Shown piece after piece: positions 7,076 to 56,097 of a DNA stretch of 64,000 nucleotides. The DNA is from an uncultured Rhodospirillaceae bacterium (GTDB taxonomy: Bacteria; Pseudomonadota; Alphaproteobacteria; Dongiales; Dongiaceae), in NCBI GenBank assembly GCA_902826565.1, contig CADEFF010000013.1, positions 1 through 64,000 of the forward strand, read 5' to 3'. The translations under genes were made by a program, and so were the position numbers. Below the pieces are notes generated by a model, which had not been told where the DNA came from, searched no databases, and saw only the letters and a list, made by a program, of their open reading frames with translations. How positions within the stretch are numbered: the stretch's first letter is position 1; each line of letters begins with the position of its first letter.

Positions 7076-7204
7076 CACGTTCCCCCTCAGATGGGTGCGC
7101 GGCTACCACCGCGCACTGCCACCACCGTTCGGCGCGAACTCGATCTCAACGCGGTAGCCTGTGCAATCTGCGAGATGCCGTGGCCAGATTCAGCAATCGA
7201 GCGG

Positions 7205-12217: not shown

Positions 12218-12557
12218 GAAGCCGACTCCCTGTCGGGCATGACCTTGGGCCACTGCCGCCGCGCCGGAACGATGCCGCACGTTTCCGGCAAGCGCCCGGA
12301 GGGGTTTCCACAACCTCCGGTTTCCTAATTCTCTACGCCAGTCGAACTAGAAAAGGGCCCTGATCGAGACTATACCGTTGTGGCATCCAGCGTTCAATAA
12401 ATGTCGAGACGAGAGGAATCATTCCGGCGCGATTAAGACGCGTGCGCGAGCGCCGATTTCCATTCCTGACGACCGAGTTAGCTTCCAGACGCGAATCCGG
12501 TCGCCCCCCTCCGCGGATTTCATCGTCTTCAAGGAACGCGCAGGTCCGTTCCGCGGG
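12218..12557. other. Intergenic region upstream of asparagine-synthetase-like gene
   Basis: About 340 bases between two minus-strand genes. It includes a moderately AT-rich stretch around 12,345-12,420 (gaactagaaaag, ttcaataaatg) that could hold a promoter for the 10,391-12,217 gene. No coding sequence or clear terminator is seen. Confidence 0.3.
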
Positions 12558-23627: not shown

Positions 23628-23764
23628 GGTCGGGCTGGTGGCGGGTTTTTCTTCACCGCGCTTCAGCTGCCCTCGCGGACTCCGGTCCTATCCTCTCCGG
23701 CGCGTGCCGGGTGCCGACGGACGATGAAGGTGCCGATCGCCGACCTGTGCCGAGCGACCCTCGG

Positions 23765-25231
23765 ATGATGATCGTCACCGTCCTGACCCTTGGCGTCGGC
23801 TTTTGTTCGCTGCTGATCTTCGGCAACATCTATGTTGCGCTCGCCGGCGTGGGCGTGCTGCTCATCGCCAACATCGCGATGGTCCTCGCCGGGCGCGATG
23901 CGTTCCACAAGAAGAGCGTGCTGTTAGTGCTCTGGTTTATCCTGCTGTCGCATCGCGCGCTGGTGCCACGGACCAAGGTCGACGAATCGGGATCGCTGTT
24001 CTTTGTCGAGGTCGGCGCCACGCTCGCCGTCCTCGCTATCGGTTCGCTCTACTTCATTGGGTCGGTCAGCAATCTGAAGATCCGGCCATTCGAAGGCCGA
24101 TTCTGGCTCCTGGTCTATACCGTCCTGGCCGGGATTTCCCTGCTCTGGACACCGGATCCGATCTACTCGGGCTTCTGGTTCCTGCGCCTGACCTGCGTCG
24201 CCGTCCTGCTCCTGGTCTATTTCGCCGAAGCCGATGTCGATGATTGTCGCAAGTTTTTCATCGTCACGCTGGTCGGCAGCGCGCCGGTCATCCTGCTGCC
24301 CATCATTGGCTACATGGTGGGCGTGAGCCATGCGCTGGTCGGTGCCCAGCGCGTAGTCGGATTCTGGGTGCATCCCGGCGTCGTCACCATCGTCGCCTTC
24401 TCGGTGGCAGCCGCGGCATTCGCCGCGATCCTCCAGGGCCGAGGCGGCCGCAGCCGGAGCGAGCACCTCATGTACTGGATCCTCTTCGGTCTCGGTTGCG
24501 TCAGCGGGTTCCTTGCGGCGGGCAAGACGGGCGCCATCGGCGCCGGCATCGCCGTGGCGGTTATGCTGCTGATCGCCAGACGAATCCGGTTCCTCATCGG
24601 CATGCTGGCGATCGCCGCCGTCGGTTTCGTGGTCTATGACGAGGTCGCGAAGGGCATGGAGGTCGGTCTGATCGCCCATATGAGCTCGTACAATTTCGAG
24701 CGGCTGGGAACCGTGCAGGGACGGTTCAACCTCTGGGTTTCGGCGCTCGGTGCCTGGAGCGAATCCGTGCAGACGACCCTGCTCGGGCGAGGCTTCACCT
24801 CCTTCCGCAGCGCCCATATCGCGGCGGAGAACGGGTGGGACCCGGGCCACGCCCATAACTCCTACCTGAATGTGCTGGTCGACATGGGGATCGTCGGCGC
24901 CTTTGCCTATATCGCGATGCTCTGGCAGGCGACCCGAAACACGGTCGCCATGGCGAAAAGGCGAGGACGGGACTTCAGCCACACCACCGCCTTCATCGGC
25001 TTCGTGGCGCTCGTCAGCCTCCTCATCGGCGCCACAATGGACGATGTGTTCGGCGGAACGCTGCAACCGACCAGCTACCTGCTGCTTGGCATCGCCATCA
25101 CGCTCGACCGTCTCGCTTTCCTCGACCGGCACACCGTCACGGATTTGCCCGAACCAGCCCGGGCTTATTCGCCGATGCATCCCGGCTCGAGGCTCGCCTC
25201 CCCTCTCGTACCGCCTGCGTTTCGCGGCTGA
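23765..25231 (+). CDS. O-antigen ligase/polymerase-like membrane protein (Wzy/WaaL family)
   Basis: 488-residue polytopic membrane protein with about 10-12 hydrophobic segments (for example LTLGVGFCSLLIFGNIYVAL, VLLIANIAMVLAG, MLLIARRIRFLIGMLAIAAVG). The large periplasmic loop before the last spans includes the family-typical LGRGFTSFRS and GHAHNSYLNVLVDMGIVGAFAY. The histidine in AHNSY matches the conserved H of O-antigen ligases. In this context a Wzy polymerase role is most likely. The ATG pair at 23765/23768 starts the conserved part; a long in-frame upstream extension is hydrophilic and not membrane-like. It lies 137 bp after the initiating transferase. Confidence 0.87.
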   Translation: MMIVTVLTLGVGFCSLLIFGNIYVALAGVGVLLIANIAMVLAGRDAFHKKSVLLVLWFILLSHRALVPRTKVDESGSLFFVEVGATLAVLAIGSLYFIGSVSNLKIRPFEGRFWLLVYTVLAGISLLWTPDPIYSGFWFLRLTCVAVLLLVYFAEADVDDCRKFFIVTLVGSAPVILLPIIGYMVGVSHALVGAQRVVGFWVHPGVVTIVAFSVAAAAFAAILQGRGGRSRSEHLMYWILFGLGCVSGFLAAGKTGAIGAGIAVAVMLLIARRIRFLIGMLAIAAVGFVVYDEVAKGMEVGLIAHMSSYNFERLGTVQGRFNLWVSALGAWSESVQTTLLGRGFTSFRSAHIAAENGWDPGHAHNSYLNVLVDMGIVGAFAYIAMLWQATRNTVAMAKRRGRDFSHTTAFIGFVALVSLLIGATMDDVFGGTLQPTSYLLLGIAITLDRLAFLDRHTVTDLPEPARAYSPMHPGSRLASPLVPPAFRG

Positions 25232-25414: not shown

Positions 25415-26242
25415 ATGAAAAGCGTGCTTATTTTCACGGTGCATAAGGCAGGGTCGATGTTCGTGCATCGTCTCACCGACTACCTGACGCACCAGCTCCA
25501 CATGCCGTACTACTCGCCGAACAACGGCAATTTCCCGGACATGCCGGTTCTTGTGGGCGACAGCTCCTACTTCAACGGCAAGTCCGGATGCTTCGGACCG
25601 CTTCGCCAATACTGCCCGGTCGAGCATATCGAGAACTATGAGGTGATCCTGCACCTGCGCGATCCTCGGGACATGCTGGTATCGCGCTTCTTCATGGTAA
25701 CGCACAAGAATCCAGGGCCGAAGCGATGGCTACGCAACGCCATGCGCGCCTACCCCTACCGGTCGGTCTGGGCGACCTCTCCGAAGGAGCTGTTCCATAT
25801 CGGCGTCCTCCAGATGAAGCGGCTTAGCCATCTGGGACGCTACAAGAGGATGCGTCAGAGGGCGGCAAGTCTGGCCGATGGCGGCATCGACAGCTACGTC
25901 ATGAGCGAAGCAGAAGAGTATTACTCGCGCTACGCGGCCTATTGCGAGAAGCTGGTCGGCAAGAAGAACGTCGCGCTGCTCCGCTACGAGGACATGGTCA
26001 CCGACTTCGACCGGTGGTATTCGGAATTCACCAAGCCATTCGGCCCCGGGGCGGAGACCGCCATCGGCGGCAGCATGATGGAGACTCTGCGCTCGCAGTT
26101 CCAGATGAAGGGCGAGGATCGCGCATCTCACAAGCGCAGGGTCACGCCGGGCGACCATCGCGACAAGCTGCGGCCGGAAACAATCCAGGTGCTGAACGAG
26201 AAGTTTTCGGACGTGCTCAAGGCGCTGAACTACCCGGTATGA
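25415..26242 (+). CDS. Sulfotransferase domain protein
   Basis: PAPS-dependent sulfotransferase-fold enzyme of 275 residues. The 5'-phosphosulfate loop appears as FTVHKAGSMFVHRL (residues 6-19) and the 3'-phosphate-binding motif as LHLRDPRDMLVSRFF (near residues 73-87). A C-terminal tail with HKRRVTPGDHRDKL probably closes the active site, as in bacterial members. A cgaggatc ribosome site precedes ATG 25415. It probably adds sulfate to the polymer, though whether in the cytoplasm on a lipid-linked unit or elsewhere is unclear. A second, unrelated-looking sulfotransferase lies at 51,995-52,843. Confidence 0.85.
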   Translation: MKSVLIFTVHKAGSMFVHRLTDYLTHQLHMPYYSPNNGNFPDMPVLVGDSSYFNGKSGCFGPLRQYCPVEHIENYEVILHLRDPRDMLVSRFFMVTHKNPGPKRWLRNAMRAYPYRSVWATSPKELFHIGVLQMKRLSHLGRYKRMRQRAASLADGGIDSYVMSEAEEYYSRYAAYCEKLVGKKNVALLRYEDMVTDFDRWYSEFTKPFGPGAETAIGGSMMETLRSQFQMKGEDRASHKRRVTPGDHRDKLRPETIQVLNEKFSDVLKALNYPV

Positions 26243-27525: not shown

Positions 27526-29481
27526 TTATCGCAGATACTCGCGCCACCACCAGGCGAGCATCGTAAGGGCGGCGATCTGGCGCGAGCGTTGCTTCGGACG
27601 ATGCCGACGCAGCAGCCATATCTTCTGCGCCTTCGGCACCTCTGTGCGGCGTTCGAAGAGGTCCATCACCTCGTCCCGGTCGAAGAGATCGGTGCTGCGG
27701 CAGAATTCCTCCACGACGCTCCGGCATTCCTCCCCGAACTGCCCGAAATACCAATCATGGAGCGGCAGTCCGAAGCCTTGCTTCTTGCGGTCGATGATCT
27801 CGTCGGGAACGATCCCGCGGATGGCTTTCTTGTGGAGATAGCGCAGCGTTCCATCGGGGAATTTCACCGATTGCGGAATGCTCATCACATATTCGACAAC
27901 GTTGTGATCGAGGAAAGGCGGCCTCGCCTCGAGCCCCACACCCATCGCCATCCGATCCCAGCGCATCAGGATGACCTCCGGCAGTCGCAGCCGGGTATCG
28001 ACATAGGTCATCCAGTTGAGCGGCGATTGCTCGGCGGCCTTCTCCTCGAAATCCTGGCGGAGCGGACGAATGACCTCCCAGGACGTGACGTCGCGGAACT
28101 TCTTCCGCATGCGTTCGGAAAGCAGGCGGTGCTTCTCGGCATTGGTGAACATCTCGCTCCCGCTCCAATAGGGCACCTGGCCCTTCACGGCCCTGCTGAG
28201 CCGCTCGTAGGGGAACGCTTCGCCGTTGCCGAGGAGCCGCATGCCGGCGAGCCCAAGCCGCTTGATCCCGCGCGGGATGGGCCAGTCGTTGAGGCGCTGG
28301 AGCTTGATCTGCTCGGCCCAGTGCGGATAGCCGCAAAAGAGCTCGTCGCCGCCGTCCCCGATATGACCAACGATGACGCCGTTGTCGCGGGCGAGCTTGC
28401 AAGCGAAGTAGGTCGGGACCGAGGTCATCTCGGCCACGACGTCATCCTGCAGACGTAGGACCAAGGGCAGGATTTCGGTGACGTCCTCCGGAGAGAGCAG
28501 GCGCTCGTGATACTCGGCACCGATCTTCGACGCCATCAGCCGCGCATAGGGCGTCTCGTTCGCGAAGTGGCGAAACTCGCCGCGCGATCCGATCGTGGCC
28601 GTCTTGATCGGCTGCGTCTCGCCTTCTGCGTAAAGCGCCGCCAGCGTGCTCGAATCCGTGCCGCCGGAAAGGAACACGCCGGTTTGCCGGTCGCTCATTT
28701 TTTGCAGGCTCACAGCGCTCCGGAGATGCGCCATTAACCCGTCGATGATCTCGGCTTCGCTTTTGCCGGCAAGGTCGAAGCGCCTGTCGAGGCAGTCCCA
28801 GTAGCGGCGACTCTGCACCTCGCCGTGTTGATCGATTTTCACCCATACGCCGGCCGGTATCTTGCTGATGCCCTTGAACATCGTGAGCGGCGGCGGTGCG
28901 GCGAGAAAGGACAGATAGTGGTAGAGCGCGTGCTCGTCGATCGTCCGCTCCTGCCCCGGGTCTTCGAGCAGGGCCTTGATCTCCGAGGCGAAAGTCACTC
29001 TTCCGTTATGGATCGAGTAGCAGAGGGGTTTGATCCCCATCCGGTCGCGCACGAGCCATAGCTCCTTCCGGCGCGCGTCCCAGATCGCGAAGGCGAACAT
29101 GCCGTTGAAGCGCTGCAGGCAGTCGATGCCCCATTGCGAGAAGGCGTGGAGGATCGTCTCCGTGTCGCAGTGATCGGTCTTCCACCGGTAGCCGCCGATG
29201 CGCTCGAGATCGGCGCGGATCTCCGCGTGGTTATAGATCTCGCCGTTGAACACGATCCAGAGCGACTGATCCTCGTTGCTCATCGGCTGGCCCGCGGCCT
29301 CCGAGAGGTCGACGATGGAGAGCCGCCGGTGGGCAAGCCCGAGCCGGCCGTCGGGAGAAATCCAGTTGCCGGCGCCATCCGGACCGCGATGGTCCATGGT
29401 GTCGCGCATCTTTGTCAGATAGGGATCGGTGATACGGAAGTCGCCGCCCGAGAACACCATCGCACCGGCTATCCCGCACAT
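27526..29481 (-). CDS. asnB: Glutamine-dependent asparagine synthetase-type amidotransferase
   Basis: Canonical two-domain enzyme of 651 residues. The catalytic Cys2 is present (MCGIAGAM), with HRGPDG, the glutamine-binding FNGEIYN, an intact PP-loop (FLSGGTDSSTLAAL) and GDGGDELFCGY. The C-terminus adds about 25 residues rich in Arg. In glycan loci such enzymes often amidate a uronic acid rather than make free asparagine, and this locus makes UDP-GlcA, so uronamide formation is plausible. A gaaaggggg ribosome site sits before ATG 29481. It is convergent with the GT4 gene. Confidence 0.94.
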   Translation of the reverse strand: MCGIAGAMVFSGGDFRITDPYLTKMRDTMDHRGPDGAGNWISPDGRLGLAHRRLSIVDLSEAAGQPMSNEDQSLWIVFNGEIYNHAEIRADLERIGGYRWKTDHCDTETILHAFSQWGIDCLQRFNGMFAFAIWDARRKELWLVRDRMGIKPLCYSIHNGRVTFASEIKALLEDPGQERTIDEHALYHYLSFLAAPPPLTMFKGISKIPAGVWVKIDQHGEVQSRRYWDCLDRRFDLAGKSEAEIIDGLMAHLRSAVSLQKMSDRQTGVFLSGGTDSSTLAALYAEGETQPIKTATIGSRGEFRHFANETPYARLMASKIGAEYHERLLSPEDVTEILPLVLRLQDDVVAEMTSVPTYFACKLARDNGVIVGHIGDGGDELFCGYPHWAEQIKLQRLNDWPIPRGIKRLGLAGMRLLGNGEAFPYERLSRAVKGQVPYWSGSEMFTNAEKHRLLSERMRKKFRDVTSWEVIRPLRQDFEEKAAEQSPLNWMTYVDTRLRLPEVILMRWDRMAMGVGLEARPPFLDHNVVEYVMSIPQSVKFPDGTLRYLHKKAIRGIVPDEIIDRKKQGFGLPLHDWYFGQFGEECRSVVEEFCRSTDLFDRDEVMDLFERRTEVPKAQKIWLLRRHRPKQRSRQIAALTMLAWWWREYLR

Positions 29482-29703: not shown

Positions 29704-31248
29704 TCAGCTTTGCACCACGCTGGCGATCGGCGCCCCATCGATGCGCGGGAGCTTTACTCCGAGCAGCGCGGCGAAGGTGGGCGCGAAATCTACCACGGAT
29801 ACGCTACCACTGAGCTTGCCTTGGCGAACCGTCGGCCCTGTGGCCAAAAAAAGGCCGAGCGCCTTGTGGTCGCCCGTGCGAACGCTCAGATGCCGGTTCT
29901 CGACGAGCCCGATCTTCGGCGAGCTTGCGCGATGGATGGGATGAGAGCGGTTCCATTGCACCAGGAGGTCCGGCAGCCGGTTGAGGCGCTCCCCGTGATA
30001 GATCCGATCCGTGCGGATCACCTCGTTGACGAGTGGCTCCCCCGTGTCGGCGTTCAGCATCTCGCGAAGGTCGGCGCTAAGCTTGTCGCACACCTCGTCA
30101 TAGTCGGACCCCGGGCGCACAATGCCGTGCGCCTCGCGCCCGACGAGATTGATCCGCACGCCTCCGGTCGCGTTGTTGGTCTTCATCTCGAAGAAGCGCC
30201 GCGTCGAGCGCTGTGGCACGACGGCGTTCTGGTAGATCGGCTCCCAGACATCCTTGCGCAGCGGCATGAGGAGCTTGCGCACCTCAAGCGGCGTGGCGCG
30301 CCAGACGTTCCGCATGAGGTCGGTGGCGCGCTTCTTGAGCGTCTCGGTACCCCGGCCCTCGAGACGGAGCAGGATCTGGTCCAGCAGGTCGGTGCCGCTG
30401 TAATGCGGTCCGATGCCGAAGCTACAGTAAGCGATGACCGTCGTATCGGCGTCGACGTTCGACAGCAGGCGACCGAGGGCCTTGTCGATGCCGATATAGA
30501 TGTCCTTCACCGGATCGCCGATCTCCTCGGCAATGGCTTCTTCGTGATGCAGATGCGACTTATCGTGGATGTGCCAACAGTGATGTCCGACGCAGTGGGT
30601 TTCGCAGAAGACCGTCAGGAACAGGTCCCATTCCGCGCTGCGCATAAGATGCTCGGAGAGTGCAGCCTTGCGCTCCATGCGGTCGAGCAGCTTGCCGCGG
30701 AAGGCCCGATACTCCGCGAGCGTGCCGGGCGGCTCCTGGTCGCAGGGCGAACCGCGCTCGGTCCCGAGCGGATCGCTTCCGAACTTCGCCTCGAGGTCTT
30801 CGGCGAGCGCGGCGGGCCAGGTGCGCGGCTTGCGGTCGTAGAACCGGACATGTGTGCCCCAGTCCATGACATGGATGCCCTTGATGTTCTCGGCGAGGAA
30901 GGAGTAGGGCGCATCCACCACGACTGTGCGCTTCCCGCCGCGATCGAGAAGCTCCCAGACCGGGCTGAAGCTCACGTCCGCCTTGCGATAGGTCGCATAG
31001 CGGTAGTTTTCGGTGTCGAAATGATCGTAGGCATCATACTGCCCATGCCGATCCGGAAGGACGCCCGTATAGAACGAACTCCAGGTCCCGCCCGAGACGA
31101 GGCCGACCGGATTTTCGATCAGGCCCCAGCTCGATCGTTCGAGAAGCTGCTTGAAGTTGGGAAGCAGCCCGGCCGCGGCCCATTCTAGGATCAGGTCCTT
31201 CTCCATGGAGTCGAACCCGATCACGAGCACCCTATTGGACGCAGACAT
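29704..31248 (-). CDS. Type I phosphodiesterase/nucleotide pyrophosphatase-family protein
   Basis: 514-residue protein of the alkaline-phosphatase superfamily. Metal-site residues appear in IGFDSMEKDLI (about residues 8-18) and the nucleophile region in SGGTWSSFYTGVLPDRHG. Further metal ligands lie in FCETHCVGHHCWH and the C-terminal GDHKALGLFLATG. There is no signal peptide, so it appears cytoplasmic. Related proteins in glycan clusters are annotated as phosphodiesterases or phosphotransferases acting on nucleotide sugars or glycolipids. The exact substrate is unknown. It is followed on the minus strand by asnB after a 222-bp gap. Confidence 0.82.
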   Translation of the reverse strand: MSASNRVLVIGFDSMEKDLILEWAAAGLLPNFKQLLERSSWGLIENPVGLVSGGTWSSFYTGVLPDRHGQYDAYDHFDTENYRYATYRKADVSFSPVWELLDRGGKRTVVVDAPYSFLAENIKGIHVMDWGTHVRFYDRKPRTWPAALAEDLEAKFGSDPLGTERGSPCDQEPPGTLAEYRAFRGKLLDRMERKAALSEHLMRSAEWDLFLTVFCETHCVGHHCWHIHDKSHLHHEEAIAEEIGDPVKDIYIGIDKALGRLLSNVDADTTVIAYCSFGIGPHYSGTDLLDQILLRLEGRGTETLKKRATDLMRNVWRATPLEVRKLLMPLRKDVWEPIYQNAVVPQRSTRRFFEMKTNNATGGVRINLVGREAHGIVRPGSDYDEVCDKLSADLREMLNADTGEPLVNEVIRTDRIYHGERLNRLPDLLVQWNRSHPIHRASSPKIGLVENRHLSVRTGDHKALGLFLATGPTVRQGKLSGSVSVVDFAPTFAALLGVKLPRIDGAPIASVVQS

Positions 31249-33041: not shown

Positions 33042-34199
33042 ATGCCGGCTGCTGCGCAATTCCGGTTCATGCCGCTCTCGGAGGGGCGGGAGCTGTTCCT
33101 GCCGCTCAGGCCGCCAGCGGCTACGGCGGGCGGCCTCGCCCTCTATGCGCCGATGCATCCGGCGGCGCGCGCCTATCGGGGCCTGATGGTCCGTGCCGTC
33201 CGCCGCGGCCTCGCGCCCTTCCTTCTCCGCAGTCGGCCGCTTTCCGACAAGGGCGGCCTGCCGCACCTGCATCATCATGGGCTGGTCGAGACGGTGAGGG
33301 CGGCGCTGAAGCGGCCTGATGCGGAGTTCGCGATCTATCAGGGCAAGGAAGCGGTCGTGCGAAAGCCGACCCTGCTCGCGATGGAACCGGACGGCCGTCC
33401 GATAGCCTATGCAAAAATTGGCTGGAACGAAGCTTCGCGACATCTGGTCGAGCAGGAGCACCAGGCCCTGGTCTTTCTCGGCCGGCAGGCGTTGCAGCAC
33501 GGGCGCGTCGCGCCGGTCCTCGGCTACCTCGATCTTGGCCACAGCAGGGTCCTGATCTCGACGCCGTTGCATCATGTGAACGCCGCCGCCGAGTTCGCGC
33601 TCACGCCGCTTCACGTCGCTTTCCTCCGCGAGGTCGGTTCGCGCGCGCTCACCCTCTCGCCGCTTGCGCAGAGCGCCTTCTGGACGCGGGCGAACGAGCG
33701 TCTGGGCAAGCTGCGCGCAAAGCTGACGCGGCGAGAGACAGAAATACTGGAGGCGGCGCTGCGAAGGCTTAGCGCGGGGTTCGGCGACGCGACGCTGCCC
33801 TGGACACTCCGGCTCGGCGACTTTCTTCCCTGGAACTTCGGTCTCGACAAGGCCGCGCAGCGCATCGACGTGGTGGACCTGGAGTTCGCCGAGAGGGGCA
33901 GCCCGCTCGGGTGGGACGTCTTCCATTTCCTGATCGGCATCAGGCAGCCCTTTCGGCCCGTCGATATCGCGGCGCAGGCCGAAGGTTCGCCCTTTCGCGA
34001 CTATTTCGCGCATTTCGGCATCGGATCCGAAAGGCTGCCTTACCTACAGCTCGCCTATCTCGTCGATCTCACGCTCTTCTTCCGATATATGTGGGGCGAT
34101 CAGACGCCCGTCGCGAGCGCCGAAAGGAACATGAGCATCAGGCTGGATGCGATCTCGACCGTCCTCCGCGAACTCGGCGAGGCGCCGGCAACACGGTAG
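33042..34199 (+). CDS. Aminoglycoside-phosphotransferase-like kinase-fold protein
   Basis: 385-residue protein with a protein-kinase-like fold seen in remote motifs. AYAKIGWNEAS (near residue 127) could supply the ATP-binding lysine. WTLRLGDFLPWNFGLD resembles the Brenner motif HGDFxPxN of APH/choline kinases. IDVVDLEFAERGSPLGWDVFHFLIG gives the DxE/D metal site. The Brenner His is a Leu here. It may phosphorylate a sugar or another small molecule in the glycan pathway, or be a pseudo-kinase. The 3' end overlaps the opposite-strand asparagine-synthetase-like gene by 100 bp. Confidence 0.7.
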   Translation: MPAAAQFRFMPLSEGRELFLPLRPPAATAGGLALYAPMHPAARAYRGLMVRAVRRGLAPFLLRSRPLSDKGGLPHLHHHGLVETVRAALKRPDAEFAIYQGKEAVVRKPTLLAMEPDGRPIAYAKIGWNEASRHLVEQEHQALVFLGRQALQHGRVAPVLGYLDLGHSRVLISTPLHHVNAAAEFALTPLHVAFLREVGSRALTLSPLAQSAFWTRANERLGKLRAKLTRRETEILEAALRRLSAGFGDATLPWTLRLGDFLPWNFGLDKAAQRIDVVDLEFAERGSPLGWDVFHFLIGIRQPFRPVDIAAQAEGSPFRDYFAHFGIGSERLPYLQLAYLVDLTLFFRYMWGDQTPVASAERNMSIRLDAISTVLRELGEAPATR

Positions 34200-35698
34200 C
34201 GCTCCTGCACCCTCGACAGGGCCCATATCAGCAAGGGCGTGAAATGCGGATGCGACGCGCCGAACACTGGCGACTCGATGCCGAAGAGACCCCTGCATAG
34301 GCCGGCGAGCGCAGTGCTCAGCCGGCCTTTGCGATCTATGCCGAGCAGCTTTCCGAGCTTGCGGACCACCCGGTAGAGATTCCGTCCGAAATCCCACCAG
34401 ACGATCTTCGCCTTCAGCCACGGCACGCTTTGTCCCTGGCTGCGCCAATGCTCCAGCACTTCCTGCTGCGTCCGGGCCGACAAGCGATTCCGCCCCTGGA
34501 ACAGCAGGATACTGGCGCCCACCTTCCGCCGTCCGAACACCGAGCGGGCGACGCCGGCTTCCTCCAGAAGCCGCCGCGGCACCGTGCGGTCATAGCCGGA
34601 ACCGGTCATGTAGGGCGCCATGTCGGCAGAGTTCGAGATCGCGCGGACGTCGCTGTGCCGCTGGATCCCGATGAAAGGCACCGGCAGATGCAGGAAGTTC
34701 ACGCGCAATCGGAACTCGCCGAGGCTGCAACCGCTGATGTCCGCTCGCCGAATGTCGGGATGGGGCGTGTCGGTCGTGCTCCAGATCTTGCCGCCCTGGA
34801 ACCCGGTGATCAGCATCCGCCCCGTCAGCTTCTCGCCGAACACACTATAGACCAGATCTTCGCCCTGCATGCCCGGCGCCAGGAACTCTGCCTCGAGTGC
34901 GGAGTCCGGCGGGGCGCTCCGCATCCGTTCGAAGTCGGTATGGCGCATGCCGAGCGCCTCGGCGGCTAGCCGTCCTGAGTCGGGCGTACCCACGCTCGAA
35001 GTCGCGAGGCTTATGGATTCCTCGCAACCGCAGGCATGCGCGATCGCCGAGGAGGCAGCCGAATCGTAGCCCGACGACAAGGTGGCGATCGGTCTATAGG
35101 CGCATTTGCGCTCCGGATGGCGTGCATTATCGAACACCGCCTGGACGGTCGAACGGAGACAGGACCGATAGCTTTCGAAATCGGGAAAGGTCGGCGGCTG
35201 CCGCTTGGGGGAGACCGCGATGCTGCCGTCGGGACGCAACACCGCATTATGATGGTAGAGAATGGTGAGCGACCCGCCCTTGAGGTCGATCTCCTTCGGC
35301 GTCTGGCTGAGGCCGTGGACGATTGAGGAGAAGATCCGGCCATAGCTGTCGTCGCGAGGATCGAGCGCCAGGCCGCTGCCCTCGAGCAGGAATGCGAACG
35401 AATTGGATACCGCTGCCAGCCGGTCGTTGCGCGCTATATAGAGCGGCTCGAGCGTGTGGGACGGACCGACGAACACGGCCCCTGCCTGCGACAAAACCCC
35501 GCCGGAGCCGAAGACGTTCGTCGCTTCGGCGAAAGCCGCCTCCGGAAAAGGGCCGTCCCAGGCGCCCTCGAAGAAACCGGTTGCGAATAGCTCGACGCCG
35601 CGGCCATGCGAGAGCTCGAGTGCATTGCCGCCTGTCGGCAGGCGCGCCATCCAGGCGAGCGGCGGCAGATCCTCCAGGCATTGCGCGATGAGTCTCAT
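34100..35698 (-). CDS. Degenerate asparagine-synthetase-like protein (A)
   Basis: 532-residue protein related to the synthetase half of AsnB. The PP-loop is recognisable as ATLSSGYDSAASSAIA (Gly-Gly to Ser-Gly-Tyr change), but the GDGGDE loop is replaced by LITGFQGGKIWS. The N-terminal domain starts MRLIAQCL without Cys2, yet retains the overall glutaminase-domain pattern (YIARNDRLAAVSNSFAFLLEG; SLTILYHHNAVL). The enzyme cannot be a normal glutaminase and may use another amine or be regulatory. Its C-terminal 33 codons overlap the APH-like gene on the other strand. It lies 72 bp downstream of a second such gene (35,771-37,606), so the two are probably co-transcribed. Confidence 0.8.
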   Translation of the reverse strand: MRLIAQCLEDLPPLAWMARLPTGGNALELSHGRGVELFATGFFEGAWDGPFPEAAFAEATNVFGSGGVLSQAGAVFVGPSHTLEPLYIARNDRLAAVSNSFAFLLEGSGLALDPRDDSYGRIFSSIVHGLSQTPKEIDLKGGSLTILYHHNAVLRPDGSIAVSPKRQPPTFPDFESYRSCLRSTVQAVFDNARHPERKCAYRPIATLSSGYDSAASSAIAHACGCEESISLATSSVGTPDSGRLAAEALGMRHTDFERMRSAPPDSALEAEFLAPGMQGEDLVYSVFGEKLTGRMLITGFQGGKIWSTTDTPHPDIRRADISGCSLGEFRLRVNFLHLPVPFIGIQRHSDVRAISNSADMAPYMTGSGYDRTVPRRLLEEAGVARSVFGRRKVGASILLFQGRNRLSARTQQEVLEHWRSQGQSVPWLKAKIVWWDFGRNLYRVVRKLGKLLGIDRKGRLSTALAGLCRGLFGIESPVFGASHPHFTPLLIWALSRVQERYRVAGASPSSRRTVEIASSLMLMFLSALATGV

Positions 35699-35770: not shown

Positions 35771-37606
35771 TCATGCGGCGCCACGGAAAGCGCGGGACGA
35801 GGCCGTCCCACCCAGAAAATCCGCCATGCAGAGAAGATTCATGATGAGAAATTCGCGGCCGGGCGACCGGTCGAAGTCGTTGTAGGTTAAACGCCGGACG
35901 AAGCGCTGCCGGTCTTCGATGAAACGGCTGGCGGCGAACAACCGCTTTGCGGTCTTCTTGAGTTCGTGCCTGATGCCACCGCCGCTGCGACGCTCCGTCT
36001 GCCGCATTCTCAGATCGAAATCCCGAACGATCGAAGCGAGGACCTCGCCGTCAAACAAGCCCGGAATACCCCACCGATCCGCCGCGATCGCTCGCTCGAG
36101 CGCGTCGCGCGATGCCGCGATCTCTTGACCGAAATCGGGATGCAACTGGCCGCGCGTGGCGCGCGGCATCCGGAACAGGTCTGGCAGGAACTTCCGTCCC
36201 ATGATCTTGAAGAGCCGTTTGTCCACCCTCAGCTCCGTCGGCACGGCAGCCATGAAATCGAGAATCTCCCGTCCAAGGAAAGGCGTCGCGACCGGAAACC
36301 AATTGCCGGCCACGAAGCCGCGCAGCGGGAGCAGCGAGAACTGGATACGCTGATCAAGATAGAGGAAGTCCTTTCGGTCGTCGGGGTTGTCGAAGTCCGG
36401 CCCCCGCCGCCGCAGTGCGTCATAGTCCGCTTCCAGCGCCGCGCGCATTGTTTCAACGGCCTCGTCTCCGGCAAAAGGCTTGAATATGTCGAGAAGCGAT
36501 GGGCTCTTCATGTTGATCGCCCCCAGGAGATCGTTGGCGTCGCGGAGACGATAGCTACCCCAGCCAAAGCATTCGTCCCCGAACAGCATGATCCGGTCAT
36601 CCCCCGGACCGACGCGCCGGGCAAGGTCCGGGAAGGCTTCGATCTCGTAGGAGGGAGAGCGCAACCCCTCCCCGATCGTTGCATTGCCGTCGAGCATCGC
36701 CGGCAAATCGCCCGAATAGCTGTCCACGACGACATGCGGATACCCGTAGAGCGCCGCCTGCCGGGCCGCGACTTCCGCATCCGAACCCGGCTTCGGCGGG
36801 CCGTAGCAGTAGGAGAAGCAGGTGATGGCGGGATGCCTGAGCTGCGCGCCCAATATACCGAGCAACACACCGGAATCGTATCCGCCGCTGAGCGCCAGCA
36901 ATACCTGCTTGCCGCGCGTCGCGCGATCCACCGATTGCACGACAAGTTCCCAGAGCGCTTCGGTGCCCTCACGAATCGACCGGGATTTGCGGGGCGCCGT
37001 CCCCGGGTGATAGTGCCAATAGGAAGTCCGGGTTTCGCCTTCGGCGGCGAACTCGTGGATCGAAGCGCGCTCGAGGCACCGGAAGTCGCGGAATGCTGTC
37101 CGGTTGTTGATGCAGTTGCCGTTAATCACATAGGAGGCGATCGCGCCCGGATCCGGTGCGAGTTCGCCGCGCGGGAGCAGCGACAGCTTCGATGAGATCA
37201 CATGCGCCGTGCCGATCCGGCCGCGGAACAGCTTTGCCGCGTTAAGTGGATCGGTGACGGCGACGAGCCGCCCGGCTTCCTTGTCCAGAATGAGGAAGGC
37301 ACTGCCCGCGGCGTCGGGCGCGCTGCAGACCCGCCGAAGCGCTTCTCCGCCGCCCGCGGCCTCGATTGCGCGCAGGAGGGATCCCGCCGGCCGATGCACC
37401 CCGAGCGCCCACACCCAGAAGCGGGGATTCTCGATCGTGCAGGCCTTCTCGGCATGGACGATTCCGAGGTCCCGGCCGTTCCAGAGATCGAACTGGCGGA
37501 ACACGCTTCCCGGACGCGTGGCGATCAGTCGTTGCAGATAGGCGTCGGGGGCGCCTTTCGATTCCGCAGAGCGCTCGATACCGATGAGCCAGTTCTCATA
37601 GTGCAT
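35771..37606 (-). CDS. Degenerate asparagine-synthetase-like protein (B)
   Basis: 611-residue protein with Asn-synthetase fold. The first residues are MHYENWLIGIERS, with no catalytic cysteine at position 2. The domain pattern continues (GSAFLILDKEAGRLVAVTDP; FRGRIGTAHVISSKLSLL). The synthetase PP-loop is intact (VLLALSGGYDSGVLLGIL), and the second ATP motif survives as MLFGDECFGWGSYR. The C-terminus has FLGREILDFMAAVP, like the PFLD motif. The ATP-binding chemistry may therefore be active without a glutamine supply. It is paired with protein A downstream. Confidence 0.83.
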   Translation of the reverse strand: MHYENWLIGIERSAESKGAPDAYLQRLIATRPGSVFRQFDLWNGRDLGIVHAEKACTIENPRFWVWALGVHRPAGSLLRAIEAAGGGEALRRVCSAPDAAGSAFLILDKEAGRLVAVTDPLNAAKLFRGRIGTAHVISSKLSLLPRGELAPDPGAIASYVINGNCINNRTAFRDFRCLERASIHEFAAEGETRTSYWHYHPGTAPRKSRSIREGTEALWELVVQSVDRATRGKQVLLALSGGYDSGVLLGILGAQLRHPAITCFSYCYGPPKPGSDAEVAARQAALYGYPHVVVDSYSGDLPAMLDGNATIGEGLRSPSYEIEAFPDLARRVGPGDDRIMLFGDECFGWGSYRLRDANDLLGAINMKSPSLLDIFKPFAGDEAVETMRAALEADYDALRRRGPDFDNPDDRKDFLYLDQRIQFSLLPLRGFVAGNWFPVATPFLGREILDFMAAVPTELRVDKRLFKIMGRKFLPDLFRMPRATRGQLHPDFGQEIAASRDALERAIAADRWGIPGLFDGEVLASIVRDFDLRMRQTERRSGGGIRHELKKTAKRLFAASRFIEDRQRFVRRLTYNDFDRSPGREFLIMNLLCMADFLGGTASSRAFRGAA

Positions 37607-37868: not shown

Positions 37869-38660
37869 ATGCAACCTTTGACCTTCTCCGTTGTTATTCC
37901 TGCGTACAACGCCGCGTTCAGTATTGGGGAAACAGTTGAAAGCGTGCTCGCCCAGAGCTGGAAGGGCTTCGAGCTCCTGGTGGTCGATGACGGGTCGACG
38001 GACGATACGCCACGGATCGTCCGTGCGATCGCGGACCGGGATTCGCGCGTCCGTCTCGTCGCCGGCCCGCGCTTCGGCCTCCCCGCCGGACCCCGCAATC
38101 TCGGGATGCGGGAAAGCAAGGGCGACTACATCGCCTTCCTTGACGCCGACGATCTCTGGAAGCCGGACAAGCTCGCCAACGATGCGGACTATTTGGCCAG
38201 CGATGCCGCGGATTTCCTCTATAGCGGCTGCGATTACTTCGTGGGGAACACCGCTCACATCATCGCACAGCTCGACCCCGCCCCGATCGGCCGACCGATC
38301 CTGTTCCGCAACCTGATCATGATCCAGACTGTGTGCGTCCGACGCCAGACCTATGCCACCCGCAGGCTGCAGTTCGACGAAGACCCGCGGCTGCGCGGCA
38401 TCGAGGACTATCATTTCATCCTCGAAACCTATTTCTCCGGCCTTCGCATGGCGCGCCGTCCCGGCACCGACGTGCTCTATCGTTCGCATTCGCCGACGTC
38501 GATCTACCCGCGCGGAAACCTGCCGCTGCTGCTCCGGCGGCACGTCTGGAACCTGCGAAAGATCCGGGAGAAATACCGGCGCCCGATGGTCGAGTATCTC
38601 TCCTTCCTCGCCCTGACGACCGCCTACAAATCGGCACAATGGGCCTTGCGGCGCGCCTGA
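37869..38660 (+). CDS. Glycosyltransferase family 2
   Basis: 263-residue GT-A enzyme with N-terminal SVVIPAYNAAFSIGETVESV (residues 7-26), VVDDGSTDDTP and the metal-binding FLDADDLW (near residues 91-98). The acceptor region includes RGIEDYHFILETYFSGL, equivalent to the ED of the usual catalytic loop. There is no membrane span, so it is a cytoplasmic inverting transferase. It is divergent from the degenerate Asn-synthetase pair and is followed after only 5 bp by the lipoprotein gene, so both are on one transcript. Confidence 0.94.
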   Translation: MQPLTFSVVIPAYNAAFSIGETVESVLAQSWKGFELLVVDDGSTDDTPRIVRAIADRDSRVRLVAGPRFGLPAGPRNLGMRESKGDYIAFLDADDLWKPDKLANDADYLASDAADFLYSGCDYFVGNTAHIIAQLDPAPIGRPILFRNLIMIQTVCVRRQTYATRRLQFDEDPRLRGIEDYHFILETYFSGLRMARRPGTDVLYRSHSPTSIYPRGNLPLLLRRHVWNLRKIREKYRRPMVEYLSFLALTTAYKSAQWALRRA

Positions 38661-38665
38661 CGACC

Positions 38666-39523
38666 ATGAATCGCGCGCCGGCACCATGCCCCAATCCTTC
38701 GGAGCGGGCCGCGCCACGCTCCAGCCTCGGTCGCGGGGGCCGCGTTCTTCTCGGACTCTGCCTGCTGCTGAGCGCTTGCTGCCAGGATTGCGAGCAGATG
38801 AGCCGCATCGGCGCCGTTTCGGGCGGCGGCGCGCGAATACCGGATGGGAATACGGGACTTGCGCCCCTCCTGTCGGCTGCGGATCCCTCGGTGCGGAGCG
38901 CTTCGGCCTCGCCCCCGATACCCCCCGTCGACGCCAAGATGGTGGCGACCGGTTTCTACATCAACGCCGCCGGCGACGTCCTTACCATCTGGCCGGAAAT
39001 CCAGGGTTGCCGCAGGATCTTGGTCCAGGACCGCTACGGCGTGCGCGAGGCGCAGGTCGCGGCCGGAAATGCCATCAGAAGCATGGCGATCCTCACCACC
39101 GGCGAGTCGGTCACGCGCTACGCGATCTTCCGGGAGAAGGATCCGGCGATGGGCGAGCTGGTCGTGGAATATGCCTATCCGCTCGTGGATACGGTGATGC
39201 TTCCGCTGACGCAGGGCAGCGGCGTCGTCCGCAGCAGAGCGAGTCCCGACGGCGTCCAGGGCGTGCTGCAGATTGCCATTCTCATCGACGGCCGTACACC
39301 GGGCGGACCTCTCGTCGGGCGCGACGGCAAGGTCGTGGCGATCGGAATCTCGAAGCTCGATCAGCGCTGGCCTGTGAATGCGAGCTACGCGATCGGGAGC
39401 GGGCTGATCCGGCGTTTTACCGCGGCAAGCGGCGTGACGGTTGACGCACGACCCGCCGCGGGAGTGGCATCAGCGCTCGGTTCGCCGGCTGACTATGTGG
39501 TGTCCGTGATCTGCTTCGGCTGA
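38666..39523 (+). CDS. Lipoprotein with degenerate trypsin-like fold (pseudo-protease)
   Basis: 285-residue predicted lipoprotein with lipobox LSAC at about residues 35-38. The second half follows the HtrA/trypsin pattern: GFYINAAGDVLTIWPEIQGC (residues 96-115), where active enzymes have VLTNHHVVEGC, so the catalytic His is Pro110. The Asp strand (MAILTTGES) lacks Asp. The Ser loop reads RTPGGPLVGRDGKVVAIGI, with Pro instead of Ser in GNSGGPL. All three catalytic residues are gone while the fold motifs remain, so it is probably a binding or scaffold protein. The start follows the GT2 stop by 5 bp; a longer in-frame reading upstream overlaps that gene and is rejected. Confidence 0.78.
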   Translation: MNRAPAPCPNPSERAAPRSSLGRGGRVLLGLCLLLSACCQDCEQMSRIGAVSGGGARIPDGNTGLAPLLSAADPSVRSASASPPIPPVDAKMVATGFYINAAGDVLTIWPEIQGCRRILVQDRYGVREAQVAAGNAIRSMAILTTGESVTRYAIFREKDPAMGELVVEYAYPLVDTVMLPLTQGSGVVRSRASPDGVQGVLQIAILIDGRTPGGPLVGRDGKVVAIGISKLDQRWPVNASYAIGSGLIRRFTAASGVTVDARPAAGVASALGSPADYVVSVICFG

Positions 39524-39543
39524 GACAGCGGCCGGGCCGGCCG

Positions 39544-39909
39544 CTAGCGCGCGGTGCGCCGCGCCCGAAGCCGGTGGCTCAGCAGCACCATGCCGAGCGC
39601 GGCGGCGGTACCCAGGGTATCGGCAATCCAGTCCGCCACCTCCGGAGTACGCCCCGGCACGAAATTCTGGGCAATCTCGATCGCCGCGCCATAGGCCGGC
39701 AGCAGAACACAGAGGACGAGCGGAGAGCGGTTCGAACGGAAGGCGAACGCACCGAGAAGCGCGAGCCAGGCGAAGGCCGAGAAATGCTGCGCCTTGTCCG
39801 AGAGGAAACTCAGCGAGCTCGGGGGTCCGGGGGGCGTCAGGGTCAGAAATGCGACGAGGAGGAGCGAGACACCGAAAAGAGCCTTCCAGACATAATTCAG
39901 CGATGCCAT
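39544..39909 (-). CDS. VanZ-like family membrane protein
   Basis: 121-residue inner-membrane protein with about four helices (LFGVSLLLVAFLTLTP; FSAFAWLALLGAFAF; LVLCVLLPAYGAAIEIAQNF; TLGTAAALGMVLLSH). The motif SDKAQHFSAFAWLALLG and EIAQNFVPGRTPEVADWIADTLG is the VanZ signature. Short VanZ proteins are frequent in exopolysaccharide loci; their function is not established. ATG 39909 (MASLNYVW) is chosen, since the upstream in-frame extension has no membrane or family character. Confidence 0.87.
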   Translation of the reverse strand: MASLNYVWKALFGVSLLLVAFLTLTPPGPPSSLSFLSDKAQHFSAFAWLALLGAFAFRSNRSPLVLCVLLPAYGAAIEIAQNFVPGRTPEVADWIADTLGTAAALGMVLLSHRLRARRTAR

Positions 39910-47854: not shown

Positions 47855-49660
47855 TCAAGGGGTTGTGCGGTCGAGTATCGAGCCGCGTCCCTCGGCGGTC
47901 AACAACCGCGGCAGGAAGTCGGCCTCCTTCTCGAAGAACAGGCGGTAATGCATCTCGAGATTGATCAGCTTGAACAGAAGCTTCGGCGCCGGCGCCGGCG
48001 GCAGGGCCAGGTTGCCGCCGATCGCGAAGGCGCCGAGGTTCCAGTATTCGGGCTTCGAGATCGCCATCGAATAGTTCCGCGTGCCTTCCTTCTCGACGTT
48101 GACGAAGCCGCCGAGTCGCCGCTCCGCCAGCTCGCGGAACAGGATCTTGTTCCGGTGTCCCGAGCCATGCCGGCCGAACTTCCGGCGCCCCGGCTGGTTG
48201 ACGACGTAGCGCACCAGATCGAAATCCAGCAGCGGATTGCGAAGCTCGACCGACGACGCCATGGAATAGGCGTCGCTATGCGGCAGGTTGCAGGCTTGGA
48301 GGAACATGGCGGTGTCCTGCAGCAGGGTCGCCTGCAGCAGGGTCTCCCGCCCGTCTCCGAGATCGCCCAGATGATCGAGGATCTGCCGACGCAGATCGCT
48401 CTGGGCTGCGCGGAAGCGCGCGCCGCCGGGCCCGAGATCGCCCATGCGCCCGTCGAGCTCGAGGATCGCGTGGAGCCTGGCGATGTCGCCGTCGAAGCCG
48501 TCGATGAGCGGCTCCAGGGTCCGGTAGCCGGCCGCATATTCGTCGACGCCGTCGCCGCTCAGCAGCACGATGGTCTTCAACTGTCGTGCGGCGTCGCAGA
48601 GCGCCTTCATGGGCGGCCCGCCGCCCCAGCGCGAGGGAAACTGCGAAGCCGCCACGAAATCGACCAGCCGCGCCGTGTAGGAATCCGGCGTCTCCAGCCG
48701 GAAATAGGCGTTGGCCGGGCGCTTCCCGAGCAAGGGGGGTACGATGGCCATCGGGATCGATTCGATCCCCGGGCTGACCTTGGTGAAGGTGGTGAGCTTC
48801 GACGAGGCCTCGCCCGTGTACCAGAAGACCAGCGAGGAATCGATGCCGCCGCTCAGCATGACGCCGACCGGCACGTCGCTGACGAGATGCCGCTCCACCG
48901 CCTGGCGGAGCGCCGCTTCCAGCCCTTCGACGGCATCGTCGTCCGAGGCGCGCCCGGCCGCGTCATAGGCATCATGATCGAAGAGCGACCAGGCCGAGAA
49001 ATAATGCTTCAGCGTCAGCGCCTCCGGCGGCCCCTCCAGATAGGCGCCGGCCGGGATCGCCCTGATGCCGTCGAAGAAGGTGTCCTCCGGCAGCAGAATC
49101 CCGAGCGACGCCAGATAGACGGGCCAGGCCTCGGGATTTGGCGCAACACTCGGCTTCACCGCCAGCAGCGCGCGGATATCCGAGGCGAGCGCCGTGATCC
49201 CCGCTTCTTGAAAGTAATAAAGCGGCTTCTGCCCGAAATGATCGCGCGCCGCCACCAGCCGGCCGGTTTCCCGGTCGAACAGCAGGAAGGCGAACATGCC
49301 GCGCACCCGGGCGAGCGTCGGCTCGACGCCGTCGCGCAGCAGCAGCTCCAGCAGCACCTCGGTGTCGGACGAGGTGCGCAGCGCGACGCCGCGCTTCAGG
49401 AGCCCGTCCCGCAGCTCGCGGTAGTTATAGATCTCGCCATTGTAGGTGAGGCTCCAGCGCCCGCTGCGGTCCTCGAAGGGCTGGTTCGCCGCGGCGCTCA
49501 GATCGATGATCGAGAGCCGCGCATGGGCGATGGCGTAGGTCTCGTGCCGCTCGATCGCCTGATGGTCGGGCCCGCGATGCCGCAGCGCCACCAAGGCCGC
49601 GTCGAGCGCTGCCGGCGGTGGCGGCCGGGACTTCCAGGCGCAGAAGAAGATCCCGCACAC
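47855..49660 (-). CDS. asnB: Glutamine-dependent asparagine synthetase-type amidotransferase
   Basis: 601-residue canonical enzyme: MCGIFFCAWKS with Cys2, RHRGPDHQ, YNGEIYNYREL, FLLFDRETGRLVAARDHFGQ, then PP-loop MLSGGIDSSLVFWYTG and LLSGDGVDEYAAGY as the second ATP motif. The C-terminal PLLDFDLVRYV motif is present. All glutaminase and synthetase elements are intact, unlike three other members in the window. It probably amidates the carboxyl group of the acidic sugar made by the cluster. It sits 12 bp downstream of one methyltransferase gene and 11 bp upstream of another. Confidence 0.93.
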   Translation of the reverse strand: MCGIFFCAWKSRPPPPAALDAALVALRHRGPDHQAIERHETYAIAHARLSIIDLSAAANQPFEDRSGRWSLTYNGEIYNYRELRDGLLKRGVALRTSSDTEVLLELLLRDGVEPTLARVRGMFAFLLFDRETGRLVAARDHFGQKPLYYFQEAGITALASDIRALLAVKPSVAPNPEAWPVYLASLGILLPEDTFFDGIRAIPAGAYLEGPPEALTLKHYFSAWSLFDHDAYDAAGRASDDDAVEGLEAALRQAVERHLVSDVPVGVMLSGGIDSSLVFWYTGEASSKLTTFTKVSPGIESIPMAIVPPLLGKRPANAYFRLETPDSYTARLVDFVAASQFPSRWGGGPPMKALCDAARQLKTIVLLSGDGVDEYAAGYRTLEPLIDGFDGDIARLHAILELDGRMGDLGPGGARFRAAQSDLRRQILDHLGDLGDGRETLLQATLLQDTAMFLQACNLPHSDAYSMASSVELRNPLLDFDLVRYVVNQPGRRKFGRHGSGHRNKILFRELAERRLGGFVNVEKEGTRNYSMAISKPEYWNLGAFAIGGNLALPPAPAPKLLFKLINLEMHYRLFFEKEADFLPRLLTAEGRGSILDRTTP

Positions 49661-52928: not shown

Positions 52929-54092
52929 TCAATAGGCGAGCCGCTTCTCGATGGTGAGCGGCGCCTTGGCCAGCACCTCGGCGATCCGGGGGCCGGCGCC
53001 GCCGTCCCCGTAGAGCAGGTCCGGCGCAAGCCGGCCCCGGCCGGCCTGCTTGCGGATCGCGGCGGCGATGGCACCCCGTTCATAGTCCACATCGAGGACG
53101 TTGCGACCGCGGTCGCGGCCGGCCTGGCGGCTGCCGATATTGACCGCCGGCACGCCTAGATAGGCGCATTCGCGAATCGCGACGCTCGAGTTGCCGACGA
53201 TGCAGAGGCCGTTATAGAGCAGCCGCAGGAAGGCCTCGGGCGGCATGTTCTTGAAGAAATGCACCTGCGGCAGCTTCTGCGTCTCGCGGAAGGCGCGGAT
53301 CCCCTTGGAGGTACCGTCGGAGCCCGCATCGACGTTCGGCCAGAACCAGAGCGTCGGCAAGCCGACCTCGGCGACCGCATGCAGCGTCTCGCCGATATGG
53401 ATGCGCGATTCGCCATATTCCGTCGTCACCGGATGCTGCATGACGACGATATAGCCCTTGCTGAGATCGAAGACGGTGCCGACGCCGCCGTAATGCTCGA
53501 AGAGGTCGGGATCGAGGCGCGGATCCCCGATCGCCGCCTTCGCCACATCGATCGAGGGACAGCCCGTCACATGCACGGTGTCGGGCTGCTCCCCCATGCG
53601 GATCACCCGCTCGGCGGCGCGGTCGGAGGCCACCAGATGCAGGTCCGCGAGCTTGGTGATGGCGTGGCGCACCTTCTCGTCGATCGAGCCGGTGATCTCG
53701 CCGCCCTGCACATGGGCAAGCGGCAGGTTCATGTAGGCGGCAGCCACGGCGGTCGCCATGGTCTCGAAACGGTCCGCGATGGTGACCACCACCTGCGGCG
53801 CAAGATCGGCGAGGACGCTCGCCATCTCCGAAAGGCCGATCCCGGTCGATTTGGCCGAGGTCACCAGATTCTCGCCTTCGAGGATCGAATAGACCTGCCG
53901 ATCGACCCGGAAGCCTTCCTTCTGGATGACGCCGACCGCGTTGCCGTAGCGGTCGAGCAGCGCGGACGCGGCCGCGACCACCTGCAGCTCGACGTCGTTC
54001 CGTTCGCCGAGCGCCGTCAGCGCCGAGCGGATGCGCGAGTAGCTCGGGCGCGCCGTGATGGCCACGCAAACTTTCCGCCTGGTCAATCGCAT
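52929..54092 (-). CDS. neuC: UDP-GlcNAc 2-epimerase (hydrolysing), NeuC-type
   Basis: 387-residue GT-B-fold enzyme that turns UDP-GlcNAc into ManNAc plus UDP, the first committed step of sialic acid synthesis. Sequence marks are KVCVAITARPSYSRIRSALT at the start, LADLAPQVVVTIADRFETM, LPLAHVQGGEITGSIDEKVR, VHVTGCPSIDVAK, and CIVGNSSVAIRECAYLGVPAVNIGSR. A homologue acting on UDP-diNAc-bacillosamine (legionaminate pathway) would look alike. No accompanying dehydratase/aminotransferase genes for that route are seen, which favours ManNAc. A ggggga ribosome site precedes ATG 54092. Confidence 0.93.
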   Translation of the reverse strand: MRLTRRKVCVAITARPSYSRIRSALTALGERNDVELQVVAAASALLDRYGNAVGVIQKEGFRVDRQVYSILEGENLVTSAKSTGIGLSEMASVLADLAPQVVVTIADRFETMATAVAAAYMNLPLAHVQGGEITGSIDEKVRHAITKLADLHLVASDRAAERVIRMGEQPDTVHVTGCPSIDVAKAAIGDPRLDPDLFEHYGGVGTVFDLSKGYIVVMQHPVTTEYGESRIHIGETLHAVAEVGLPTLWFWPNVDAGSDGTSKGIRAFRETQKLPQVHFFKNMPPEAFLRLLYNGLCIVGNSSVAIRECAYLGVPAVNIGSRQAGRDRGRNVLDVDYERGAIAAAIRKQAGRGRLAPDLLYGDGGAGPRIAEVLAKAPLTIEKRLAY

Positions 54093-54101
54093 TTCCCCCG
54101 G

Positions 54102-55139
54102 TCAGTCGAGATCGTCATCGGAAATCGGCGCATCGCGCGCCACCGCCCGCTTGAGACGGCGGCCCAGCAGCCGGGGCAGCGCCGAGGGCGCGAGCCCGGT
54201 GCCCGGCTTCTTCGCCGCGACATGCTCGCGGGCGAGCTGCGTGCCTTTCGGCAGGTCGGCGGCAGCCACGAGGCTCTTCATGAAGATGCGCCGCAGCGGC
54301 GCGAGCTCGGCCGCCACCGCCGCCTTGTCCACGGGGCTGGCCCGCATCGCCTCGATGAAGCGGACGCCGCGCACGAGCTCGGCCAGCTCCGCCGGCGTCA
54401 GCGAGGCCACCACGTCCGGCCCGAACATGTCGCGGCTGAGCGCGACATGCACCTCCAGCACTTCGATGCCGAGCGTCGCCGCGGCGAGGCCCGGGAAGAT
54501 CGTGGCCGAGTGATCGGAGAGCCCGACGGCGGCGCCGTAGCGCTCGCGATAATGCGGGATGAGATTGAGCCCGACCGCTTCCGGCGGGCAGGGATACATC
54601 GTCGCGCATTGCAGCACCGCCACCGGCAGCTTCGCCTGCCGGATCCGCGCCACGGCATCGTCGATCTCCGCGAAATCGCTCATGCCGGTGGAGAGGATCA
54701 TCGGCAGCCGGGTCGCGATCATCCGGTCCAGCATCTCGATGCTGCCGACCTCGCCGGAGGCCACCTTCCAGCCCGCGACGCCGACCCGCTTCAGGAGCTC
54801 GATCGCCTCGATCGAGAACGGCGAGCTCAGGAAGAGGAGGCCCTTCTCGGTCGCATGATCCTTCAGGCCTCGCCACTGCGCCTCGGTAAATTCCATCCGC
54901 TTCCAGTAATCGTAGCGGGTCTCGTCCTGCGGGCTGAAGCGCTTGCGCCACGGCTCCGCGGGCGTGCTCTCGGCGGCCGCGATATGGGTCTGGAACTTGA
55001 CCGCGGTGGCGCCGGCCGCGGCGATCGCGTCGATGAAGGCGTGCGCCGTGCCGAGGCTTCCGTCGTGGGCCTGGGCCACTTCGCCGATGATCGTGCAGGG
55101 CCGGCCGGGGGCCGGATCATGAAGCCAGGTCTCAACCAT
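54102..55139 (-). CDS. neuB: N-acetylneuraminate synthase-type enzyme
   Basis: 345-residue enzyme that condenses ManNAc (or a related sugar) with phosphoenolpyruvate. The TIM-barrel pattern is IIGEVAQAHDGSLGTAHAFI, then AVKFQTHIAAAES, a FLSSPFSIEAIELLKRVGV strand, VASGEVGSIEMLDRM, LSTGMSDFAEID and YGAAVGLSDHSATIFPGLAAA. The C-terminal antifreeze-like SAF domain (KSLVAAADLPKGTQLAREHV) is present. It lies 9 bp upstream of neuC. The exact nine-carbon product cannot be fixed from sequence alone. Confidence 0.95.
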   Translation of the reverse strand: MVETWLHDPAPGRPCTIIGEVAQAHDGSLGTAHAFIDAIAAAGATAVKFQTHIAAAESTPAEPWRKRFSPQDETRYDYWKRMEFTEAQWRGLKDHATEKGLLFLSSPFSIEAIELLKRVGVAGWKVASGEVGSIEMLDRMIATRLPMILSTGMSDFAEIDDAVARIRQAKLPVAVLQCATMYPCPPEAVGLNLIPHYRERYGAAVGLSDHSATIFPGLAAATLGIEVLEVHVALSRDMFGPDVVASLTPAELAELVRGVRFIEAMRASPVDKAAVAAELAPLRRIFMKSLVAAADLPKGTQLAREHVAAKKPGTGLAPSALPRLLGRRLKRAVARDAPISDDDLD

Positions 55140-55168
55140 GCGATGGGCGTGAATCTCGCAGATGACGC

Positions 55169-56083: not shown

Positions 56084-56097
56084 GAGGCGAGATATCC

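Follow-up and report, generated by a model that had tools for sequence, protein, structure and literature searches.

A predicted trypsin-fold lipoprotein without a catalytic triad in a polysaccharide locus of an uncultured Rhodospirillaceae bacterium

Introduction

In animals, pseudoproteases with a trypsin fold are a familiar class of proteins. Among bacteria, the best documented parallel to the protein analysed in this study (the target) is MamO of magnetotactic bacteria, a trypsin-fold pseudoprotease from a specialised gene cluster which has a degenerate triad and a residue other than Gly at position 193 (PMC4794232). The target likewise possesses a degenerate triad and a non-Gly residue at position 193, and its gene also lies in a specialised cluster. 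MamO, however, contains a TauE domain, and two of its His residues bind metal (PMC4794232), whereas the target has no transporter domain and no His at all; TauE gave no Pfam match, and a di-His metal site is absent.

The HtrA/Deg proteases, such as DegS and HtrA1, have the same protease-domain fold as the target, which differs from them in lacking the triad and a PDZ domain (no Pfam match at E<=10). The target is most closely related to protease modules that form the C-terminal part of larger alphaproteobacterial proteins and have two conserved Cys residues; these relatives often end in TVLVECWK or a similar sequence. The alphaproteobacterial Trypsin_2 (PF13365) proteins with this Cys motif correspond to the target in domain boundaries, order of the conserved blocks, the two invariant Cys and the C-terminal position of the domain. 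They differ in that His, Asp and Ser are intact and that most comprise 330-1260 amino acids, whereas the target consists of a bare lipoprotein anchor and a domain with a dead site.

Results and Discussion

The gene and its immediate flanks

The gene is located in the stretch of 64,000 nucleotides that was analysed (the window), and its surroundings are as follows.

37869..38660, plus strand: GT2-family glycosyltransferase (PF00535, E=1.4e-32), upstream partner in a putative two-gene operon
38666..39523, plus strand: target, trypsin-fold pseudoprotease lipoprotein of 285 amino acids (sequence, PF13365 match, alignment, AlphaFold/Foldseek)
39527..39545, no strand assigned: perfect 9-bp GC-rich inverted repeat with a 1-nt spacer, located where the target and VanZ-like genes converge

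An earlier reading made from the sequence only had given the coordinates, the frame and the 5-bp distance to the GT2 gene correctly: the GT2 stop codon (TGA) occupies 38658-38660 and the target ATG 38666-38668. Judged from the sequence, this spacing is operon-like and suggests co-expression. The exact start is ambiguous, as a second ATG in the same frame lies at 38639, within the GT2 gene, and no obvious Shine-Dalgarno sequence precedes either candidate ATG (38666 or 38639). The GC content at the three codon positions of the domain (0.65/0.49/0.83) is coding-like and similar to that of the adjoining genes. The VanZ-like gene follows directly downstream in convergent orientation, and the inverted repeat between both genes possibly forms a hairpin at the transcript end, though without a T-run.

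Domain organisation and predicted fold

The target is composed of the following parts.

38666..38776, plus strand: type II (lipoprotein) signal peptide, residues 1-37, with lipobox LLSA before C38
38777..38779, plus strand: C38, predicted lipidated Cys
38780..38935, plus strand: Gly/Pro/Ser-rich linker, residues 39-90, predicted disordered
38936..39520, plus strand: trypsin-like pseudoprotease domain, residues 91-285, with Trypsin_2 at 94-226
39008..39010, plus strand: C115, conserved Cys that probably forms a disulfide with C283
39512..39514, plus strand: C283, conserved C-terminal Cys

The N-terminus shows an n-region with several Arg residues and a hydrophobic stretch, followed by the lipobox (LSAC across the cleavage site) that had already been recognised. 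The residue at position +2 is Cys and not Asp, and according to the E. coli +2 rule the protein is most likely anchored at the outer membrane. Over the first 50 mature residues the pLDDT is about 40-55.

Trypsin_2 (PF13365) matched the target over the full profile with weak scores (E=1.6e-4 and 22.9 bits for the protein; 24.9 bits in the genome search), which are below the gathering cut-off of 27.6 bits. This weak similarity was nevertheless accepted because of three further results. A whole-genome search (E<=1e-3) detected relatives in 22 of the 96 genomes, the target's own counted (best E=2e-14), with additional ones in the class and phylum genome samples; phmmer against the PDB returned HTRA2/HtrA proteins (E about 1e-4); and an AlphaFold2 model gave a trypsin-like fold. 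The model has a mean pLDDT of 80.7, with 142 residues at 90 or more and values mostly of 80-98 within the domain, and it was guided by intact relatives, since the input alignment of 42 sequences consisted of relatives with intact triads. In agreement with the trypsin fold proposed earlier, the prediction is a two-beta-barrel structure, for which Foldseek found the protease domains of HtrA1 and DegS as top PDB matches (E=4e-9, prob 1.00).

Loss of the catalytic site

The positions of the catalytic residues are occupied in the target as listed here.

38993..38995, plus strand: P110 (CCG), at the position of the catalytic His
39080..39082, plus strand: S139 (AGC), at the position of the catalytic Asp
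39293..39301, plus strand: R210-T211-P212, replacing Gly193-Asn-Ser195 (oxyanion loop and nucleophile)

For comparison, genome contigs were scanned with an alignment of intact relatives, as an alignment containing the target was too diverse. In the resulting set, His and Asp (80/80 each), Gly, Asn or Ser, and Ser at the oxyanion-loop and nucleophile positions (80/80 each) and both Cys (80/80 each) were present throughout, counts that are biased because the scan patterns favour intact-like sequences and one of them ends at the oxyanion Gly. Relatives retrieved with the target itself as query also showed intact triads in the alignment, and the non-redundant relatives with intact triads number 107.

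These alignments bear out the replacement of His by Pro110 and of the nucleophilic Ser by Pro (P212), as stated in the sequence-only reading. The catalytic Asp, described there as missing, is indeed lost; its position is not absent, however, but occupied by S139. That reading had not mentioned that the equivalent of the oxyanion Gly193 is R210, nor the exchanges N108 to I and V111 to E close to the His position. The target possesses neither the His-Asp-Ser triad nor the Gly193 of an S1 serine peptidase (HtrA/S1C). Moreover, none of its 285 residues is His, while the mean of the open reading frames in the window is 2.4%. Without His, classical serine or cysteine catalysis by a Ser-His or Cys-His pair is excluded. 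Taken together, sequence, alignment and fold prediction provide good support for a catalytically dead trypsin-fold lipoprotein, i.e. a pseudoprotease.

What has been retained

Both marks of the family with a C-terminal Cys are present in the target, namely a Cys five residues past the His position (C115) and a Cys near the C-terminus (C283). C283 is found in 117/117 rows of the wider alignment, and apart from one gap both Cys occur in all 117 rows, the target included; a C115-C283 disulfide is therefore probable on sequence grounds. Strongly conserved columns number 44, of which 21 are kept in the target and 23 are lost, several of the latter outside the active site. In the catalytic loops 2 of 11 conserved columns are kept versus 19 of 33 elsewhere (Fisher p=0.036), a modest enrichment of losses at the active site that refers to hand-picked catalytic-loop columns. 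At columns which are hydrophobic in >=90% of the relatives, 42 of 49 residues are still hydrophobic. These data favour, with a modest effect, a protein in which the fold was retained and the active site discarded.

Origin and relatives

No orthologue of the target was found in the 96 related genomes or in the class and phylum samples, and a scan of genome contigs with the target alone as query yielded no relative. A tblastn search against plasmids gave one match, annotated as serine protease, with 28% identity. One relative (L034 in genome G314) is a nearly single-domain protein of 290 amino acids with an intact triad and a deletion in the stretch preceding the nucleophile. An origin by duplication within the genome and subsequent degeneration is not supported, since the other five PF13365 matches in the assembly as it stands are Deg-like or AAHC-type trypsins and do not belong to this subfamily.

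In the phylum sample, three further relatives without a triad were detected (L151, L153 and L156), all of them from one family, f23. A matching sequence occurs in 89 of the 101 f23 genomes searched, a number that counts all matches, including weaker, uninspected ones that may be intact paralogues. All 35 inspected copies (L151, L153, L156, L159-L162, L190-L217) are triad-less, with replacements of His-Asp-Ser such as E-G-A, A-G-V or Q-G-A, and the oxyanion Gly is retained in 34 of them. L135, which was scored '--S' from a partial aligned stretch, was excluded. We refer to this group as the Rhodobacterales-type clade, because a named example is Pseudorhodobacter turbinis (Rhodobacterales; NZ_CP039965, P0002). 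The proteins, to which L218:3001-3582 is also assigned, comprise about 600 amino acids with a C-terminal Trypsin_2 domain whose score clearly exceeds the Pfam cut-off (E=6e-16), and are liable to be annotated as serine proteases despite the lost triad. In the two full-length proteins scanned, SPOR-like and PG_binding_1 domains precede the trypsin domain; neither was detected in the target with Pfam. Literature searches on this clade returned nothing specific, and a paper on Dinoroseobacter vesicles gave no link.

The target resembles the clade in belonging to the same domain family, in the lost triad and in the two Cys, and differs from it in that the clade proteins are multi-domain, widespread in their family and show mostly E/A/Q/D-G-A/V/T replacements. 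In a tree calculated without the catalytic columns, the 35 clade sequences form one side of a branch with a support of 100/99. The branch of the target is the longest (4.4 changes per site versus a median of 0.7), and the target had no supported placement in free trees. A tree in which it was constrained to group with the clade was not rejected (AU p=0.886) and reached a higher lnL than the quick free tree, which may be due to long-branch attraction. A 3-residue deletion at target positions 125-127 is common to 35/35 clade members and occurs in 13/107 intact relatives, whereas it is absent in the target, and the diagnostic states of the target comprise 12 of the intact type, 6 of the clade type and 29 of neither. 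For these two reasons we assume, with low certainty, that the triad was probably lost at least twice and in the target independently of the clade.

The polysaccharide locus

The window contains many glycosyltransferase genes and the following genes of a Wzy-type locus.

3369-5645: Wzz/GNVR/AAA chain-length protein (Wzz/Wzc-like)
5777-7078: BBP2_2 porin
7205-7774: Poly_export protein
22113-23627: sugar transferase
23465-25231: Wzy_C protein
52929-56835: NeuB, UDP-GlcNAc 2-epimerase and cytidylyltransferase genes

The last set probably represents a nonulosonic (sialic-like) acid pathway. Genes for a sulfotransferase-like protein (25415-26242) and a type I phosphodiesterase-like protein (29704-31248) also lie inside the locus, suggesting a modified polymer. 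Four asparagine-synthase-like genes are present as well (10391-12313, 27526-29481, 35771-37606 and 47855-49660), of which the one at 35771-37606 has no detectable glutamine amidotransferase domain; the neighbouring open reading frame (34100-35698) gave no Pfam match.

The GT2 gene upstream of the target has no close counterpart among the 16 further genomes from the same family (best match 48% over 117 residues). The intact relatives from the same family that were examined are located in unrelated loci and not among polysaccharide genes; intact triads in otherwise identical loci, which had been named as evidence against the earlier proposal, were not seen. Literature searches for polysaccharide-linked trypsin pseudoproteases returned nothing specific. 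The target is linked to polysaccharide only by its position, 5 bp behind the GT2 gene and inside the Wzy-type locus; a role in which it binds or checks the polysaccharide or its export machine, as suggested in the sequence-only reading, is on these grounds just plausible.

Proposed function and alternative explanations

Our preferred reading, to which we assign a probability of roughly 0.45, is that the target is a dead trypsin/HtrA-type envelope lipoprotein retained for binding or as a scaffold, which most likely assists the surrounding polysaccharide machinery. There is precedent for retained dead forms, both in the 35 of 35 inspected f23 relatives and in MamO (PMC4794232). Localisation, disulfide, ligand binding and polysaccharide role are what we infer for the following sequence of steps. 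The protein would be exported by Sec and subsequently lipidated at C38. A flexible linker of roughly 50 residues would then hold the two-barrel domain, locked by the C115-C283 disulfide, on the periplasmic side, most likely of the outer membrane. What was once the substrate cleft, reshaped by W109-P110, S139 and R210-T211-P212, may take up a peptide, a loop or a glycan as ligand and leave it uncleaved, and the protein, presumably co-expressed with the adjoining GT2 gene, would assist the polysaccharide machinery encoded nearby. A narrower version, in which a lineage-specific pseudoprotease for polysaccharide assembly was recruited into the Wzy-type locus, binds the polymer or the export machine and arose independently of the Rhodobacterales-type clade, seems doubtful to us.

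The gene might instead be decaying: a protease module of the ordinary type that is no longer catalytic, serves no function and drifts in a polysaccharide locus that changes rapidly. The isolated occurrence of the target, its very long branch and the loss of more than half of the strongly conserved columns, also outside the active site, are consistent with this, whereas the frame is uninterrupted, the GC3 is coding-like, and the lipobox, the two Cys and the core of hydrophobic residues have been preserved; a long-neutral frame of 285 codons would be expected to gather stops or frameshifts. We regard decay as unlikely on the whole, and it stays a serious rival because no orthologue was found from which selection on the dead state could be gauged. 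Less likely still is a functional pseudoprotease with a general task in the envelope, for example as a scaffold in cell-wall or protein quality control, that came to lie next to the GT2 gene by chance. The PG_binding_1 and SPOR-like domains of the dead f23 relatives point to the cell wall rather than to exopolysaccharide, and the intact relatives from the same family are found in other loci; the target itself, however, has no PG-binding or SPOR domain, and the 5-bp spacing suggests co-expression with the GT2 gene. Hydrolysis by unconventional catalytic residues is very improbable: the fold and some Ser, Asp and Glu residues are available, but Pro occupies both the nucleophile and the His position and Arg lies in the oxyanion loop, and for a protein without His we rejected this explanation.

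Significance

As a binding or scaffold module the target would represent a possible second cellular context for bacterial trypsin-fold pseudoproteases, for which MamO is the worked example. The f23 group shows that a domain can pass the Trypsin_2 cut-off and yet cannot be a classical serine protease. It possibly deserves more attention than the target. The role of a dead protease domain at the cell wall is directly testable with this group.
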